Source: Halorientalis persicus | GTDB taxonomy: Archaea; Halobacteriota; Halobacteria; Halobacteriales; Haloarculaceae | Direction of reading: 5' to 3' | Length of the DNA: 64,000 nucleotides | NCBI RefSeq assembly: GCF_900110215.1 | Contig: NZ_FOCX01000001.1 | Span: forward strand, 268,892 to 332,891 | Part shown: one piece after another, positions 21,109-27,954 of the stretch | How the letters are laid out: each line of letters starts with the position of its first letter | Position numbering within the stretch: the first letter of the stretch is position 1 | The notes under the pieces: model-generated | The model's database searches: none | Told to the model about the DNA's origin: nothing | What the model saw: the letters and a program-made list of their open reading frames with translations, nothing else | Position numbers and translations under genes: made by a program

Positions 21109-22173
21109 TCACCTAGGACGCGACGGCGCTCCCACACGCCGTGCACCCGTTCCTGGCCGCTCGACACGCGACAGGTCGATCTCACCGCCCGGCATCTCGA
21201 TTCCCTCGAAGGTATCGTCGGCGAGCAACAGCGAGCCGTCGAGGTCGGCGTAGTCGGCCAGCGGTGTGAGGTGGGCCGCGGCCGCGATGGACGCGTTGGT
21301 CTCGGTCATGCAACCGAGCATCACGTCCAGTCCGCACGCACGAGCGGCGTGACACATCCGCAGGACGGGCCAGATCCCGCCGCTTTTCGTGAGTTTCAGC
21401 ACTGCGATGTCGGCGGCCTCGGCGACGCGCGGAATGTCTCCGGGGCCCACGCAACTCTCGTCGGCCGCGACCGGGAGGGGCCCGGCCTCGCTGACCCGGG
21501 CCAGTCCCGCGAGGTCGTCGGCGGGGACGGGTTGCTCGACGAACTCGACGCCGTGGTCATCGAGGAACGCGCTCATCGCCACGGCCTCGTCGGCGTCCCA
21601 CGCCCCGTTGGCGTCCACCCGGATCGTCGCGTCTGGCACCCGGTCGCGGACGGCCCGAACGATCGCCCGATCCCGGTCGGTCCCGAGTTTGAGCTTCAGA
21701 ATCGGGTAGGTCTCGGCCGCGCGGGCCGCCCGCTCGGCCATCCGGTCGGTGTCGTCGATGCCGACGGTGAACGAGGAGGTGATCGGGCGGTCGGGATCGA
21801 GGCCGAGGTGGCGGTAGAGCGGCAGGTCGACCCGCTTGGCGGCCAGGTCGGCCAGCGCGATACTGATCGCCGCGCGGGCTCCGGGGTGGGCGGTGGGGCT
21901 GCCCGCGGCGTCGGCGAGGCGGCGCGCGATCCGCTGGCGGTTGTGCGGGTCGCAGTCCGCGACCGCCGCCAGCAGGTCGGGGAGGGCGTCGGTGATCGCC
22001 TCGCGGGACGGGCTGTAGTAGTCGGCCGGGGCCGCGCCGCCGATCCCTCGATTGCCGGCGTCGTCTTCCACTCGGACGACGAGATTCTCCGAGACCGTCG
22101 TTGTACCTCGGGAGATACCGAACGGTTCGGCCAGTTCGAGGTCGTGCCACGCGAAGTCAGTGGTCAGGATCAT
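21109..22173 (-). CDS. dgcA: Enolase-superfamily epimerase (dipeptide epimerase / DgcA-like)
   Basis: 354 residues. Muconate-lactonising subgroup of the enolase superfamily: the catalytic KxK appears as LKLKLGTD, metal ligands in RVDANGAWD, FVEQPVPADD and VAADESCVG, and the second Lys in LKLTKSGGI. By sequence alone it would be called an L-Ala-D/L-Glu epimerase. The neighbouring DUF1611 gene (5-bp gap, same strand) points to the two-enzyme D-glutamate pathway known from marine bacteria and haloarchaea, in which DgcN N-acetylates D-glutamate and DgcA acts on N-acetyl-D-glutamate. The role in this pathway is an inference from the pairing. Confidence 0.85.
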   Translation of the reverse strand: MILTTDFAWHDLELAEPFGISRGTTTVSENLVVRVEDDAGNRGIGGAAPADYYSPSREAITDALPDLLAAVADCDPHNRQRIARRLADAAGSPTAHPGARAAISIALADLAAKRVDLPLYRHLGLDPDRPITSSFTVGIDDTDRMAERAARAAETYPILKLKLGTDRDRAIVRAVRDRVPDATIRVDANGAWDADEAVAMSAFLDDHGVEFVEQPVPADDLAGLARVSEAGPLPVAADESCVGPGDIPRVAEAADIAVLKLTKSGGIWPVLRMCHAARACGLDVMLGCMTETNASIAAAAHLTPLADYADLDGSLLLADDTFEGIEMPGGEIDLSRVERPGTGARRVGAPSRPR

Positions 22174-22179
22174 GGCGGA

Positions 22180-23193
22180 TCAGACCAGCGCGTCGAGCAG
22201 TTCGTCGGCCCCGAAGCGCACGGGATCGGTCGCGGGCGCGTCGATGGCCGTGGCGTACTCGATGACCGCCTGGTTCGCGTCGGCGTCGTCCAGCCCGCTC
22301 GTATTCAACGCGCCGGCGGCGACAGTCGTGTCCGCGACGGGTGCGGCGAGGTCCTCGTACAGCGAGCCGACCTCGGGAATCGGCGGAATCGCGAAGGACT
22401 CGTAGCCGTGGATCGCCTCGCGGCCGGCCTCGTGACAGAGGACCAGCTGGTCGGGCATCGCGCCGTGGAGGATGCCACAGGTCACCGCCGAGTAGGCCGG
22501 GTGAGTGATCGATCCCTGGCCTTCGACGACCAGCAGGTCGTGGTCGTCGCCGCGTTCGCGGACCATCCGCTCGACCGCACCCGCGACGAAGTCGCTCGGG
22601 ACGCGGTCGACGACGATCCCCCAGTCCTCGATCAGGACGCCGGTCTGGCCCGTGGGGATCAGTGCGGCGTCGATCCCGCGCTCGCGAGCGGCCGCGACGA
22701 GTTCGGCGCTCGTGGTCATCTTCCCGGTCGAACAGTCGGTGCCGACCGTCAGCACCACGTCGGCGTCGACCTCGCGGCTGTGCCCCTCGGCGACGGTGAG
22801 GTCGGCGGGTGGCCGCCGCAGGTCTCTGAGTTCGACCCCGTGGTCGTCGGCCAGTGCGGCGAACTCGTCGTCCTCGGTGAGGAAGTAGTGCAGGCCCGAG
22901 AGCACGTCACAGCCGCGTTCGATGGCCCCGCGCACGTCGGGCCGCCAGGACTCGTCGAAGTCACCGCCGATGGGGGCGATGCCGATCACCAGCGCGTCGA
23001 TCGGATCGGGAACGTCCTCGATGCCGGCGACGATCGGGGCGTCCTGGACGTCCGGCAGGTGATCGGCGACACGGTCGCCCGCGCGGTCGCGGTCGAGGAC
23101 GGCGGTCACGTCGTAGTCGGCGTATCGGAGGACGCCGACGGCGGTCTTGGCGCGGTCGGGGAACCGCTCGTGGGCGAGAACGGCGACGTTCAT
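22180..23193 (-). CDS. dgcN: DUF1611 protein, probable D-glutamate N-acetyltransferase
   Basis: 337 residues. An N-terminal Rossmann-like domain (AVLDRDRAGDRVADHLP) leads into a P-loop NTPase-like DUF1611 domain with TVGTDCSTGKMTTSAELV near residue 150. The family was long annotated as a putative NAD-dependent epimerase; members paired with an enolase-superfamily gene act as DgcN. It is first in an operon with the epimerase gene. The start at 23193 is supported by a TATA element 26 nt upstream. An IS6 element has landed only 34 bp upstream of this start codon. Confidence 0.82.
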   Translation of the reverse strand: MNVAVLAHERFPDRAKTAVGVLRYADYDVTAVLDRDRAGDRVADHLPDVQDAPIVAGIEDVPDPIDALVIGIAPIGGDFDESWRPDVRGAIERGCDVLSGLHYFLTEDDEFAALADDHGVELRDLRRPPADLTVAEGHSREVDADVVLTVGTDCSTGKMTTSAELVAAARERGIDAALIPTGQTGVLIEDWGIVVDRVPSDFVAGAVERMVRERGDDHDLLVVEGQGSITHPAYSAVTCGILHGAMPDQLVLCHEAGREAIHGYESFAIPPIPEVGSLYEDLAAPVADTTVAAGALNTSGLDDADANQAVIEYATAIDAPATDPVRFGADELLDALV

Positions 23194-23213: not shown

Positions 23214-23225
23214 GGGCATAAACGC
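23214..23225 (-). promoter_or_regulatory. TATA element of the dgcN-dgcA operon, abutted by an IS
   Basis: On the minus strand GCGTTTATGCCC is centred 26-27 nt before the ATG at 23193. The IS6 target duplication covers its upstream half, so the TATA box is intact but everything upstream of it, including the BRE position, is IS sequence. Confidence 0.65.
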
Positions 23226-23227
23226 TG
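23220..23227. repeat. Target-site duplication, left copy (AAACGCTG)
   Basis: AAACGCTG at 23220-23227 is repeated exactly at 23980-23987 on the other side of the IS6 element. Eight bp is the standard duplication length for IS6-family elements. Confidence 0.9.
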
Positions 23228-23279
23228 GGCGGTGTTCAGATAAGGATGAAAAATGAGGCGGTGTGTTTTCTGAGTGTCC

Positions 23280-23971
23280 ATGCCCGAAAACACACGCCTT
23301 GGCGGGAGTATCGACCAGATCGACTTAGAGTTTGTTGAACGAGAAGCGACACCGCGACTGCTGATGAAGCTCGGTATTCAGTTGCATCTCGCTGGACTCT
23401 CGCTTTCGAATTCCGTTTCGGTTCTTGATATATTCGGTGTCGAGCGAGCGCGATCCGCCGTGCATAATTGGGTTCACAAGGCAGATCTACAGCCCGAAAC
23501 TGGATGCAGTCCGGATCACGTTGCGGTCGACGAGACCGTGATCCGGCTCAACGACGAGCAATACTGGCTGTACGCTGCGGTCGATCCCGAAACGAACGAA
23601 TTACTCCATACAAAGCTTGAACCGACGAGAACGAACGCTCTCGCTCATGCGTTTTTCGCTGAACTCCGCGAGAAACACGACGTGGACGACGTCCTCAGAA
23701 CGCAAATCGTTCTGATGGGCTGCACGAGAACTTCGTTCTCGTGAACGCCGTGTTTCTCGTCGATGGTGCAGCACCACTGAAAGACGCCTGCCAGCGACAC
23801 GGCCTCGATTTCAGATACGAGCGCCATGGAAATCGGAACAGTGTCGAACGTGTCTTTCGTGAGGTAAAAAGACGTACCTCTTCGTTCTCAAACTGTTTCA
23901 GCAACGCCCAGCGAGACACAGCTGACAACTGGCTCCAATCGTTCGCCTTCGCATGGAATCAGCTAATCTGA
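23280..23971 (+). pseudogene. IS6-family transposase, interrupted
   Basis: The first part (23280-23690) gives the N-terminal HTH region and the first catalytic Asp in HVAVDETVIRL; the last part (23747-23971) gives VFLVDGAAPLKDACQ with the second Asp and the SVERVFREVKRRT motif with the catalytic Glu, ending FAWNQLI. Between them lie 56 extra bases that are not transposase sequence, shift the frame and bring a stop at 23742-23744. Removing exactly 23691-23746 rejoins HDVDD to AVFLVDGA, as expected for this family. I call it a broken gene rather than programmed frameshifting because the extra segment is not family sequence. Confidence 0.92.
23691..23746. repeat. 56-bp double-hairpin insertion inside the transposase gene
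   Basis: Two perfect hairpins side by side: TCAGAACG / loop CAAAT / CGTTCTGA at 23695-23715, and CACGAGAAC / loop TTC / GTTCTCGTG at 23723-23743. They share the core AGAAC. The segment is absent from the family-consensus protein. Origin unknown; a palindromic mini-element is possible. Confidence 0.8.
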
Positions 23972-23979
23972 ACACTACC

Positions 23980-23987
23980 AAACGCTG
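23980..23987. repeat. Target-site duplication, right copy (AAACGCTG)
   Basis: Exact copy of 23220-23227; marks the right boundary of the IS6 element. Confidence 0.9.
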
Positions 23988-23995
23988 ACACCGTG

Positions 23996-24007
23996 GCTTT
24001 TTGTATC
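23996..24007 (+). promoter_or_regulatory. TATA element of the SecD-like surface protein
   Basis: GCTTTTTGTATC is centred about 26 nt before the ATG at 24028. It supports this start over the open frame beginning at 24001. It lies 17 bp beyond the IS6 right end. Confidence 0.6.
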
Positions 24008-24027: not shown

Positions 24028-25341
24028 ATGCGTCGCTTAGCAATCGTCCTCCTGGTGGGGGGAACGCTCGCTCTGACACTGCTGGCAACCCCAGCCGTCG
24101 GAGCACAGGCCGAAACGAACGGGAACACGACTGTCGTCGGAGCCGAGATTAACGGCTGGAGTGCGACGGGAATCGACTTCGAGGGGGATCGGTCTACCGC
24201 GACGACCCGCCGCGACATAGCCGCGAACCTCAGCCTCGATCCCGATCAGGTCCGGTTGCTACCCGAGAACAACACGGTCGAGGTGTACGGTGACAACCTT
24301 ACTGCGTCCATTGTCGCGGAGGGCTTCGCTACTGCCGGGTTCTCGCCGAATGGAGTCAGGAAAGGCGTGACCGACCGGACGCAAAACGCCATCGTGTCGG
24401 TTCTGAAGGCCAGACTCAACGAGACGGGCGTCGGCGGACAGGTCGAGGCGATCACCGTCGGCGGCACACAGTACGTCACCGTCAAGGGCGCGAACCGCGC
24501 CGCAGTGACGCGGATTCTCCGGAACCGAGGGCGGGTTGAGGTACTCGCCCACTACCCGGTCACGGACGGCGAAAAGGCCGTCTATCGGCAGACGAAGATC
24601 CTGGAAAATGAGGACTTCGTCCGCGTCGGACCGGCACAGACAAATCGCGCCTTCACTGACCGTCCAACCGTCAAGGTGTTTCTCAAAGTAGAGTCGGCCC
24701 GTGAGGCCGCCGCTACAGTGAGACAGGCCGGCTTCAGCGACGAAGTTAACACAGGGTGTCCAGACGATGCAGTCGAGGATCCGGACGAGACTAAAGGATA
24801 CTGTCTGTACACGGTATTCAATGGAGAGGTCCGGTACGCGAGGTCACTGGGTGAGGGGCCGGCCGAGGCGGAGATCAACTTCGAGAACTACGGGGATGAC
24901 CCTTCGGTCTTTTTCATAACAGAGACCAAGCGAGAGGCCGAGCAACTGTCGATGACGCTCAGGACCGGTATGTACCCGGTGCCGCTGTCGGTCACCGACC
25001 TCCCTGAATCGGTCGAGTCGACCACGCTCCAGCGCGCCGCCAACGCCACCCGCGAAGGGATAACAAACGAGACAGAGGAGGTTACGATCGACACGCCCGA
25101 CGATACGACGCTGGAGGACACACCCGACGATACGACGCTGGAGGACACACCCGACGATACGACGCTGGAGGACACACCCGACGTACCAACCGACAGCACG
25201 AGCGATACTGTGAGCGACGCCGCGACGACCGACGGCGTCGTGACGGTCACGGACGCGGTCGGGCCGGGCTTCTCGCCGGCGACGGCGCTGGTCGCGCTGG
25301 TCCTGGCGAGTGCCGGTCTGCTCGCCGGCCGGCTCAGATAG
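24028..25341 (+). CDS. SecD periplasmic-domain-like surface protein with PGF-CTERM anchor
   Basis: 437 residues. A signal peptide (1 to about 26) is followed by a region that tracks the extracytoplasmic (P1) domain of archaeal SecD: NTVEVYGDNLT, GVTDRTQNAIVSVLKARLNE, FVRVGPAQT, GYCLYTVFNGEVRYARSL and LSMTLRTGMYPVPLSV (about 310-321), all with clear counterparts in haloarchaeal SecD. The SecD transmembrane bundle is absent. Instead there is a Thr/Asp-rich stalk with a 9-residue repeat and a C-terminal PGF motif (413-415) plus hydrophobic helix and Arg tail, the archaeosortase (ArtA) sorting signal. The protein should be lipid-anchored outside the cell. Function unknown; a soluble or decoy partner of protein export, or an extracellular chaperone, is possible. 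Confidence 0.8.
   Translation: MRRLAIVLLVGGTLALTLLATPAVGAQAETNGNTTVVGAEINGWSATGIDFEGDRSTATTRRDIAANLSLDPDQVRLLPENNTVEVYGDNLTASIVAEGFATAGFSPNGVRKGVTDRTQNAIVSVLKARLNETGVGGQVEAITVGGTQYVTVKGANRAAVTRILRNRGRVEVLAHYPVTDGEKAVYRQTKILENEDFVRVGPAQTNRAFTDRPTVKVFLKVESAREAAATVRQAGFSDEVNTGCPDDAVEDPDETKGYCLYTVFNGEVRYARSLGEGPAEAEINFENYGDDPSVFFITETKREAEQLSMTLRTGMYPVPLSVTDLPESVESTTLQRAANATREGITNETEEVTIDTPDDTTLEDTPDDTTLEDTPDDTTLEDTPDVPTDSTSDTVSDAATTDGVVTVTDAVGPGFSPATALVALVLASAGLLAGRLR
25093..25173. repeat. Three 27-bp coding repeats (TPDDTTLED)
   Basis: Three nearly identical 27-bp units encode the nonapeptide TPDDTTLED in the stalk of the SecD-like protein, just before its PGF-CTERM anchor. Threonine-rich stalks of haloarchaeal surface proteins are typical O-glycosylation regions. 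Confidence 0.9.
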
Positions 25342-26221
25342 CGCGCAACTGGATCGTCCAGAAGTCACGGAAGGCGTCGTCGAGCGCGGGTTCGGGGTCC
25401 CCGGTCGCGTCGACCGTGGCGGTCACGTCCGCCTCTCCGGCGAAGTGCGACAGGACCGTGCGCTCGCCGACGACGTACAGCGGGTCGGTCGTCCGCTCGT
25501 CGAGTGCCTCCAGACAGCGGTCGACGTGGGAGTCGATCTGTTCGTCGCGCAGTCGCTCGAACCGGGATTGCGAGAATCCGCCTTTGGAGTGTTGACTCTT
25601 CAGCTCCGAATCGAAGCCGTGGAACGCGGTTCGCTCGCGCCCGTCGTACTCACCCATGGCGAACAGGTCCGACCGGACCAGTGCGAGGGTGAATTCCCCT
25701 TCGGGTGCGAACCAGGTCCGGTCGAACTGGAATCCATCGCTCCACTCGGCGAAGGGCTCGGGCGGAGCTGGCACGGAGAGGGTCGCGCTGACGAGGCCGG
25801 CGTCGTCGGTCACCGCGAGACAGGGTGCGGCCTCGGACACGAGCGTCGCACGCTCGCCGAAGCCGTCCCGCACCGCGTCGGGGGTGTCGTCGGCGACGTA
25901 GGCCGTCAGCGCGCCTTCGGGATCGGTCGCCATGGAGTCGAGACGATCCAGAACCGCGGTCAGACGCTCGCCGCGGAGCCGTTCGCGGCGGCGGTAGTCG
26001 AGCGATCCGTCCTCGCCTTCGAGGCGGTCGACGGTGCCCTCCAGATCGGCGATCCGGTCTTCGAGGCGGTTGGCCCGCTGTTCGGCGTCCTGTCGAGCGC
26101 TGGCGGCGTCGGCGCGGCGCTCCTGTTCGGCCTCCAGTTGTCGTTCGAGGTGGCGTTTCTCCTCCTCTAGCTCCTCGATGCGCGCTTTGAGGTCGGCCCG
26201 CCCCAGCAGCTCGTCGAGCAT
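25334..26221 (-). CDS. Vms1/ANKZF1-type peptidyl-tRNA hydrolase (VLRF1 domain)
   Basis: 295 residues from the ATG at 26221 (MLDELLGRADLKARIEELEE); the 14 upstream residues are Pro-rich and not conserved. An N-terminal coiled coil (about 8-75) is followed by an eRF1-like domain with the VLRF1 signature SKGGFSQSRFERLRDEQID near residue 213, whose Gln aligns with the catalytic glutamine of this family. Eukaryotic Vms1 releases nascent chains from stalled 60S subunits; archaeal homologues are assumed to act in ribosome rescue. Its 3' end overlaps the convergent SecD-like gene by 8 bp. Confidence 0.85.
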   Translation of the reverse strand: MLDELLGRADLKARIEELEEEKRHLERQLEAEQERRADAASARQDAEQRANRLEDRIADLEGTVDRLEGEDGSLDYRRRERLRGERLTAVLDRLDSMATDPEGALTAYVADDTPDAVRDGFGERATLVSEAAPCLAVTDDAGLVSATLSVPAPPEPFAEWSDGFQFDRTWFAPEGEFTLALVRSDLFAMGEYDGRERTAFHGFDSELKSQHSKGGFSQSRFERLRDEQIDSHVDRCLEALDERTTDPLYVVGERTVLSHFAGEADVTATVDATGDPEPALDDAFRDFWTIQLRAI

Positions 26222-26246
26222 CACCAAAAAGGACGGCGGCGGGGGC

Positions 26247-26633
26247 TTAAATTGCGGGGCCACCGGGGCCGTCGTCGAGGGCGTCGACGGCGACGCTCCC
26301 GGCGGTCATGGCCAGCAACTGTTCGGCGCGGTCGGCTTTGGCCAGCAGGACCTCCGTGAGCGCCGGCGGATTGCTGACGCGCGTGTCTTCGAGGACCGAG
26401 GGCGGCACGGCCAGTGTGTCCTGTGGCACGTCGTCCGCGCCGGTCACGGGGAAGTGTCGTTCGTCGACTTTCATCACCAGCGGTCTGTCGAGCCGCTCGA
26501 CGCCCTCGCCGTCGGCGTAGAGTTGCTCGTTGACGCGCTCGTGTTGATCACGGCTGATGGCTGCGGTCTCACTCTCGCCCGGCGTCACGTACAACCGGCC
26601 GAGGTAGTACCCGCTCGAAAACCGCTCGAACAT
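26247..26633 (-). CDS. DUF5802-like haloarchaeal protein
   Basis: 128 residues from the ATG at 26633 (MFERFSSGYYLGRLYVTPGE). Soluble, with no TM segments or metal motifs. Features are the YYLGRLYV strand, HERVNEQLYADGEGVERLDRPLVMKVD and HFPVTGADDVPQDTLAVPPSVLED. It resembles a small haloarchaeal family of unknown function. It lies 25 bp upstream of the Vms1-like gene on the same strand, so the two may share a transcript. Confidence 0.7.
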   Translation of the reverse strand: MFERFSSGYYLGRLYVTPGESETAAISRDQHERVNEQLYADGEGVERLDRPLVMKVDERHFPVTGADDVPQDTLAVPPSVLEDTRVSNPPALTEVLLAKADRAEQLLAMTAGSVAVDALDDGPGGPAI

Positions 26634-26925
26634 GCTATACGAGAGCACATACCATATCAGCGTAGAAAAGCCTTGGCCGGAGCCCTTATGTCGTCGCGCT
26701 TTCAGCGGGTTTCGGCCGTCGGAGCACGGGGCGGCGTGGCGGAGGCAGAGAGCGCAGTGAAGGACGGTGCAGATCGGAGTCGGGTCGACCGACCTGCGAT
26801 CGGCGTCGGGGGCGGAGCAGAGCGCGTAAACGCTATTGGACGGTCTGGAGTCGTGAGAAGGGTCGGATGAACAGTGAGAACGGATCTCCGCTTTTTTGTA
26901 CGATAGCGGAATAGTTAGGCACAGA
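26634..26925. other. Intergenic region between divergent genes
   Basis: 292 bp. It contains AT-rich tracts next to both genes and a 60-codon open frame from 26689 with no recognisable product, which I do not annotate. CTTTTTTGTA at 26891-26900 is the likely TATA element of the gene at 26926 (26 nt spacing). Confidence 0.5.
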
Positions 26926-27954
26926 ATGAGTGCTCGTGGGACGCTGCTGGCTGTGGCCCTCGTCGTGGTCGGCGTCGCGCTCGTCGCCGTTCCGGTGTTC
27001 GGTGCCGTCGGTGGTATCGCACCGGTCAGCGACGGAGCGTCGGCAGTCCAGACGAACGGAACCAACGACACGGCGAGTAACGTGAGCATCGGGGCCCGTA
27101 TCTCTTCGTTCATGCAGGCGAGTAGTGCGGAGACGGACAGTTCCGTCGAGGCAGGGATGTGGGCCGCCAAGTACAACCAGTCCGAGGAGAGCGATCGACC
27201 GGCCGTCGTCCAGTCCCGCATCGACCGGCTGGAACGCCGGAGCGAGCGGTTGCGCGAGCGCATGGCGGACCTCCAGGCGAAACACGAGAACGGCACGATG
27301 CCCCGGGTGGCCTACAGAGCACGGGCGAGTCGACTCACCGCGGAGCTCAACGCCCTCGACGAATCGATCAACGAGACGGACGAGCGAGCGCGGGCCGTGG
27401 GTGTGAACACGTCGCAACTCGATCAGCTCAGGACACAGGCGCGGAACCTGAGCGGACAGGAAGTCGCGGCAGTCGCGCGTGACCTCGGCGTCGGTCGACC
27501 CGACCACGCTGGCCCACCCGAGGACAGGGGCCCCGGTGACGCTGGCCCGCCCGAAGAGCGGGGGCCCGGTGACGCCGGCCCGCCTGAAGACGTGGGGCCG
27601 TCGACGAACGTGACGGACGACGACCAGTCGGGACCGCCGGCCGACCGCGGCGGGACCGGTGGTCCGCCCGGTGACGAAGAGACCGGACCGTCGACCGACG
27701 GCGAGTCACCGGCCGACCGGAGAGCAAACGGCAGTGATCGCGGAGCGGCAGGCTCGGGCGGCGGAGCCGACGGCGACGACCGGAGCGACGGCGCGAACGA
27801 CACCGGGAACGGAGCCGACGAGGCGGGCGGCGGTGCCGAGGACGCGGGCGGCGGATCGGGCGCTGGCTCGGACGGCGCTGGCCCCGGACACGGCGGGCCC
27901 GCAGGCCCCGCCGGGGGCAGTAACGATGGCGGCGGACCGCCCGGCCGCAACTGA
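26926..27954 (+). CDS. Secreted haloarchaeal protein with Gly/Pro/Asp-rich tail (DUF7096-like)
   Basis: 342 residues. Signal peptide (TLLAVALVVVGVALVAVPVFG, residues 5-25), then a helical domain of about 140 residues with IGARISSFMQASSAETDSSV and a predicted coiled coil around DRLERRSERLRERMADLQ. The C-terminal half is low-complexity, with a 12-residue repeat of the type GDAGPPEERGPG followed by Gly/Asp/Ala-rich sequence. No membrane anchor at the C-terminus. It is followed after 46 bp by an HTH regulator on the same strand, a pairing I recognise from other haloarchaea. Function unknown; cell-surface. Confidence 0.72.
   Translation: MSARGTLLAVALVVVGVALVAVPVFGAVGGIAPVSDGASAVQTNGTNDTASNVSIGARISSFMQASSAETDSSVEAGMWAAKYNQSEESDRPAVVQSRIDRLERRSERLRERMADLQAKHENGTMPRVAYRARASRLTAELNALDESINETDERARAVGVNTSQLDQLRTQARNLSGQEVAAVARDLGVGRPDHAGPPEDRGPGDAGPPEERGPGDAGPPEDVGPSTNVTDDDQSGPPADRGGTGGPPGDEETGPSTDGESPADRRANGSDRGAAGSGGGADGDDRSDGANDTGNGADEAGGGAEDAGGGSGAGSDGAGPGHGGPAGPAGGSNDGGGPPGRN

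Follow-up and report, generated by a model that had tools for sequence, protein, structure and literature searches.

The window, a 64,000-nt stretch of Halorientalis persicus DNA (contig NZ_FOCX01000001.1), carries on its plus strand an open reading frame at positions 24028–25341 (ATG at 24028, stop codon at 25339–25341). Its 437-amino-acid product is, on sequence evidence, a SecD P1 domain without the motor, predicted to be secreted and to end in a C-terminal PGF-type anchor. The features of the locus that we refer to below are the following:

21109–22173, minus strand: enolase-superfamily (DgcA-like) gene beside the DgcN-like gene (PF13378, PF02746)
22180–23193, minus strand: DUF1611/DgcN-like gene, divergent conserved flank (PF07755, E=9.5e-79; synteny)
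23223–23984, plus strand: broken IS remnant with a frameshifted IS240-type DDE transposase (PF13610; 22-nt imperfect inverted repeats; reading frames)
23998–24006, plus strand: TATA-like box TTTTTGTAT of a leaderless-type promoter, its centre 26 nt before the ATG
24028–25341, plus strand: putative free SecD-P1 surface protein, 437 aa (reading frame, NF006215, BLASTP to the genome's own SecD)
24028–24105, plus strand: predicted signal peptide MRRLAIVLLVGGTLALTLLATPAVGA, in place of SecD TM1 (sequence, hydropathy, alignment to SecD TM1)
24130–24999, plus strand: SecD P1 domain, residues 35–324 (NF006215, Foldseek to SecDF, BLASTP to the genome's own SecD)
24523–24927, plus strand: P1 head region, residues ~166–300, boundaries approximate (kept in all free copies read)
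24757–24804, plus strand: Cys244 and Cys259, a likely disulfide (each 100% conserved across 69 full P1 domains from SecD and free copies alike)
25039–25257, plus strand: Thr/Asp-rich stalk with a 27-bp tandem repeat (repeat at 25090–25183)
25261–25338, plus strand: PGF-CTERM-like tail made of GPGF, a hydrophobic stretch and RLR (TIGR04126 below threshold; orthologues above the cut-off)
25334–26263, minus strand: gene for a VLRF1-type release factor, convergent with the P1 gene and conserved as a flank (PF18859, E=2.5e-31; synteny)

Profile comparison aligned residues 35–324 with positions 59–349 of the 522 in NF006215, the NCBIfam model of haloarchaeal SecD (E=1.2e-44). By this measure the resemblance to SecD is far beyond chance, while the score of 152.8 lies well below the cut-off of 666 for whole SecD. 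Against the SecD encoded in the same genome, BLASTP gave 33% identity over 355 columns (E=9e-46), with the alignment stopping just before SecD TM2. A simple hydropathy scan picked out just two hydrophobic segments, one at the signal peptide and one at the C-terminus, and thus none of the six-segment arrangement with an RND bundle by which SecD is recognised. Since the transmembrane bundle is absent, the protein should be unable to use an ion gradient. Compared with SecD (NF006215; TIGR01129), it shares the whole of P1, the Cys pair and an LRTGxxPxPL Gly/Pro motif at the P1 end, but lacks the TM2–TM6 bundle and the coupling to the ion gradient, has a signal peptide where SecD has TM1, and gains a stalk and a PGF-type anchor. 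The stalk contains 3.5 copies of a 27-bp unit encoding DTPDDTTLE. An earlier note, made from the sequence alone, had read the gene in this way, as a SecD P1 domain that drops the bundle and ends in a Thr-rich repeat stalk and a PGF-CTERM signal; profile, BLASTP, hydropathy and repeat all agree with that layout.

The same note had called for a structural comparison with SecD P1, which came out in favour of the fold in the ranking of matches and fell short in the quality of the superposition. The nine best PDB matches found by Foldseek were all SecDF (5xan, 3aqo, 5xap and 5yhf among them; 3aqo is the P1 of T. thermophilus), with a best E of 3.6e-7 and a probability of 1.0. The query was a low-confidence AF2 model (pLDDT 55) built on a three-sequence alignment, and we take these matches as supporting only, because the TM-scores are low (at most 0.40). 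A sequence search of the PDB returned a sole, borderline match, again 3aqo. The Pfam family of the P1 head, PF22599 (SecDF_P1_head), matched five of the nine members of the aligned family set at E<0.1 (best E=2.2e-6), but did not match the window protein at E<1, nor any of the tested relatives that consist of the head only.

The C-terminal tail reads GPGFSPATALVALVLASAGLLAGRLR. Its tripartite layout is visible by eye, and a PGF-type anchor is likely, although the curated model TIGR04126 (PGF-CTERM) gave the tail 14.1 bits, under its cut-off of 24.5; orthologues from other genera, encoded at this same locus, scored 30.2 and 28.5 bits. In haloarchaea, ArtA cuts PGF-CTERM tails and the proteins become lipidated (PMC8559796). 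The genome encodes ArtA (contig C63; TIGR04125, 306 bits), which makes lipid anchoring of the window protein plausible. The lipid-anchored reading of the earlier note thus has the enzyme in its favour, while the tail itself stays below the family threshold. The protein resembles ArtA-dependent PGF-CTERM proteins such as the Haloferax S-layer glycoprotein in its signal peptide, Thr/Asp-rich stalk, PGF motif, hydrophobic segment and basic end, and differs from them in that its globular part is SecD P1 and its tail is sub-threshold.

A full-length SecD of 544 aa with six hydrophobic segments is encoded beside secF on another contig (C65), as the earlier note had expected for a gene that is not a degraded copy. 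Given an intact secD and secF elsewhere in the genome, the window gene is not a decayed sole copy. No secF partner lies at the window gene itself, whose flanking genes are dgcN and VLRF1.

We estimated selection on the free copies from pairwise codon comparisons. For P1 codons, dN/dS was 0.34 between the window gene and its counterpart in genome G006, 0.32–0.42 in other pairs of full free copies and 0.45 between two shortened (second) copies, while the stalk and tail gave 0.39–0.68. The SecD of the window genome (G000, L002) compared with that of G006 (L061) gave 0.32 for P1, suggesting that purifying selection acts on free P1 and SecD P1 with about equal strength. In the same SecD pair the membrane part gave 0.01, so that P1 of haloarchaeal SecD changes far faster than this part. 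Within the Halorientalis free copies, with region boundaries placed by hand, the head is the best conserved part (0.80, against 0.66–0.73 in other regions), whereas the P1 regions of SecD are about equally conserved. Most positions conserved in SecD are retained in the free copies.

The place of the gene is conserved as well. In the window and in G001, G004, G005, G006, G007 and H. pallida, the P1 gene sits in reverse orientation between VLRF1 and dgcN, and the same arrangement recurs in G054–G056, G141, G144 and G122. In the Halorientalis genomes G002 and G003 and in a number of other genera, VLRF1 and dgcN are adjacent on one strand with no P1 gene between them, across gaps of mostly 38–122 bp (~490 bp in G090 and ~600 bp in G064). 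Relatives without the P1 gene have VLRF1, dgcN and dgcA as neighbours on one strand, whereas in carriers this row is split by the antisense P1 gene, which marks the P1 gene as accessory, with gain or loss at one fixed site. An operon of the P1 gene with its neighbours was ruled out by this antisense placement. Almost every PGF-type free-P1 gene compared within Halorientalis has a TTTTTGTG/TTTTTGTAT-like box centred ~26 nt upstream of the ATG. The IS remnant of the window, which separates dgcN from the P1 gene, stops 43 bp short of the ATG and spares the promoter box. Further along the window, positions 26896–27954 encode a protein that is conserved in the genus and predicted to be secreted; it has a coiled coil (weak match to DUF7096) and a long C-terminus rich in Gly, Pro and Asp.

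The protein is shorter than SecD, the IS remnant lies just upstream, and broken or partial free copies exist in some genomes (a frame change near the start in G004, fragments in G214 and G247), as would be expected of a SecD copy decayed to the point of having no function. We consider this explanation very improbable and have set it aside: the dN/dS values of full and shortened free copies, the conserved promoter, the presence of a signal peptide and an anchor, the full secD elsewhere and the recurrence of the locus in several genera all argue against it. The G004 frame change lies where the free P1 gene encodes its signal peptide (L049 near 10000, minus strand) and may be a sequencing error or mark a broken copy.

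Presence or absence at one site among close relatives, together with the fast change of SecD P1 relative to the membrane part and the exposed, putatively tethered location, is also what one might expect of a decoy, that is, a free SecD ectodomain that soaks up a virus, a halocin or another agent recognising SecD P1. At the same time, exposed domains commonly change fast, no defence neighbours were noted, and we know of no agent targeting SecD P1 in haloarchaea, which we count against this idea; a decoy therefore seems improbable to us. The gene had no match in the PADLOC defence library, which also speaks against a decoy and led us to reject an anti-phage system. A scan of viral contigs with the genome's own SecD as query returned no match.

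We searched 391 genomes of the order with profiles and then went through the matching genomes one at a time, which showed that the layout is not a one-off, bearing out the suggestion that haloarchaea be searched for free P1. At least one non-SecD match covering P1 or the P1 head was present in 71 genomes, about a fifth (two of them, G214 and G247, with broken-looking fragments; ~55 loci were read and open-frame length was used for the others), and the window gene as a single oddity is thereby ruled out. Of the seven other Halorientalis genomes searched, six have free P1 genes, and so does H. pallida. The exception is G002, and such patchy presence means that the gene is dispensable. A second free copy, in tandem with the first and without the N-terminal base, is present in G006 and H. 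pallida; in these pairs (L047:7355–9784 and L024:8001–10408) the second copy keeps head, stalk and tail. G056 and G054 have two SecD-like genes each besides the free P1, both reading as full length in G056.

The free copies differ in how much of P1 they keep and in how they would be anchored. Those with a full P1 mostly have PGF-type tails, with lipoboxes instead in G003 and G108. Nine head-only copies from two genera have PGF-type tails too. Of 20 further head-only regions nearly all start with a lipobox, in most cases accompanied by a twin-arginine motif. Over all free copies the lipobox is the more frequent anchor. The head is kept in every free copy read and the base is often missing. Head-only relatives match SecD profile positions ~136–280; ten head-region proteins tested gave no Pfam family above cut-off, and their NCBIfam matches were weak ones to SecD. 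In a series of small haloarchaeal lipoproteins (L106–L125, L070, L079–L082), mostly with a Tat signal and a lipobox, a P1-head-like region is the only recognisable domain.

Among the head-only copies tested we found no consistent neighbours. The genes beside them differ between groups and include an acetyltransferase, S66 and M32 peptidases, and RuBisCO-like and acyl-CoA synthetase-like genes. The Cys pair is absent from some head-only lipoproteins, having been lost from the head in one lipobox group. These observations, with the patchy occurrence, the divergent sequences and an anchor and stalk that resemble those of ordinary haloarchaeal surface proteins, fit a P1 fold co-opted for some other task at the surface (ligand binding, adhesion or envelope structure), unconnected with export. 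We regard such co-option as rather unlikely, since free copies keep most SecD-conserved positions and one of them is linked to secFD.

That linked copy is found in G003 (L052:6269–9936), where secF and secD come ~30 bp after a lipobox P1 gene and run in the same direction; among the free copies examined, linkage to secFD was seen in this genome only. The earlier note had proposed that a free P1 could assist the folding or release of exported proteins or regulate SecDF, both of which seem reasonable from the sequences, and the G003 arrangement is the nearest support for either. As a regulator, free P1 would compete with or dock on SecD, SecF or their partners and tune their activity without handling chains. 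The P1 homology, the G003 gene order and the Halorientalis-group copies, which keep the whole of P1 with its base, are consistent with this, but the head-only versions lack the base that would touch the rest of SecD and most free copies are unlinked to secDF, which leaves a purely regulatory role unlikely.

To trace the origin of the free copies, we placed 68 full P1 domains, free and SecD, in one tree. The free label changes at least five times on well-supported branches, and forcing the free copies into one clade costs 152 log-likelihood units (AU p=5e-6), which rules out a single common origin of all free full-P1 copies, subject to caveats of gene conversion and long branches (very long for G141, G122 and G108). 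In a quick tree, the free copies of G180 and G430 are sisters of their own SecD (100 and 99% SH-aLRT), and that of G108 groups among the SecDs of its genus. Repeated origin thus seems the plain reading of these sequences, and gene conversion from the resident SecD could mimic it. The non-monophyly of the free copies suggests that selection has favoured a stand-alone P1 more than once.

We tentatively favour, at a little short of even confidence, a reading in which the window protein is a tethered, unpowered P1 head that binds chains leaving the Sec channel and acts as a chaperone or ratchet. A Sec-type signal peptide would export the P1 domain, which would stand on a flexible stalk while the PGF-type C-terminus holds the protein at the outer face of the membrane. 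The head would then bind exposed polypeptide stretches as they leave the SecYE-beta channel, beside SecDF or in competition with it. So bound, it may serve as a passive tethered chaperone or as a ratchet against backsliding, as PpiD may do with SecD in bacteria. PpiD, a bacterial chaperone at the SecYEG exit, has a transmembrane helix and parvulin domains; the window protein has no sequence relation to it, and PpiD serves here solely as a model of action, being an extracytoplasmic chaperone that is tethered and lies close to the SecD P1 head. Bacterial SecDF binds the translocating chain through its P1 head, which adjoins the membrane-anchored PpiD at the translocon (PMC7793623); SurA, too, has been predicted to interact with this head (PMC9987972).

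Several of our results point to such a tethered binder: homology to SecD P1 across the whole domain, an intact secD and secF elsewhere and ArtA in the same genome, dN/dS like that of SecD P1, and a lipobox P1 gene directly before secF-secD in G003. The part always kept, and best conserved in the free copies, is the head, which in bacteria handles the substrate, while the base is often lost. Moreover, non-monophyly speaks for repeated selection of stand-alone P1, and two kinds of anchor, C-terminal and lipobox, would lead to the same outcome. On the other hand, presence is patchy even within Halorientalis, the usual neighbours (VLRF1 and DgcN) are not export genes and run in the opposite orientation, linkage to secFD occurs in one genome only, and the model of the structure is of low quality. 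The action of a binder that lacks energy coupling might also be quite unlike that of SecDF.

Extended to the haloarchaea as a whole, the proposal would be that widespread, repeatedly evolved stand-alone P1 heads, tethered by PGF-type tails or lipoboxes, work as unpowered export chaperones on the external side of the membrane, a generalization that we think possible and yet doubtful. In the literature searched we found no paper joining SecD with PGF-CTERM and none containing the phrase 'SecDF P1 head', most subscription papers lying outside that coverage. Stand-alone P1 would bear on two largely open matters, namely how archaea power and complete export in the absence of SecA and which factors fold proteins at their high-salt surface. 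In a stand-alone P1, seemingly selected more than once, nature would have separated the substrate-handling part of SecD from its motor, and what P1 does in the absence of an ion gradient would be directly testable in culturable haloarchaea with genetics. The free P1 class would also provide many haloarchaeal surface lipoproteins with an ancestry and, if our reading is true, tethered P1 heads would be an extracytoplasmic aid to folding or translocation so far undescribed in archaea.
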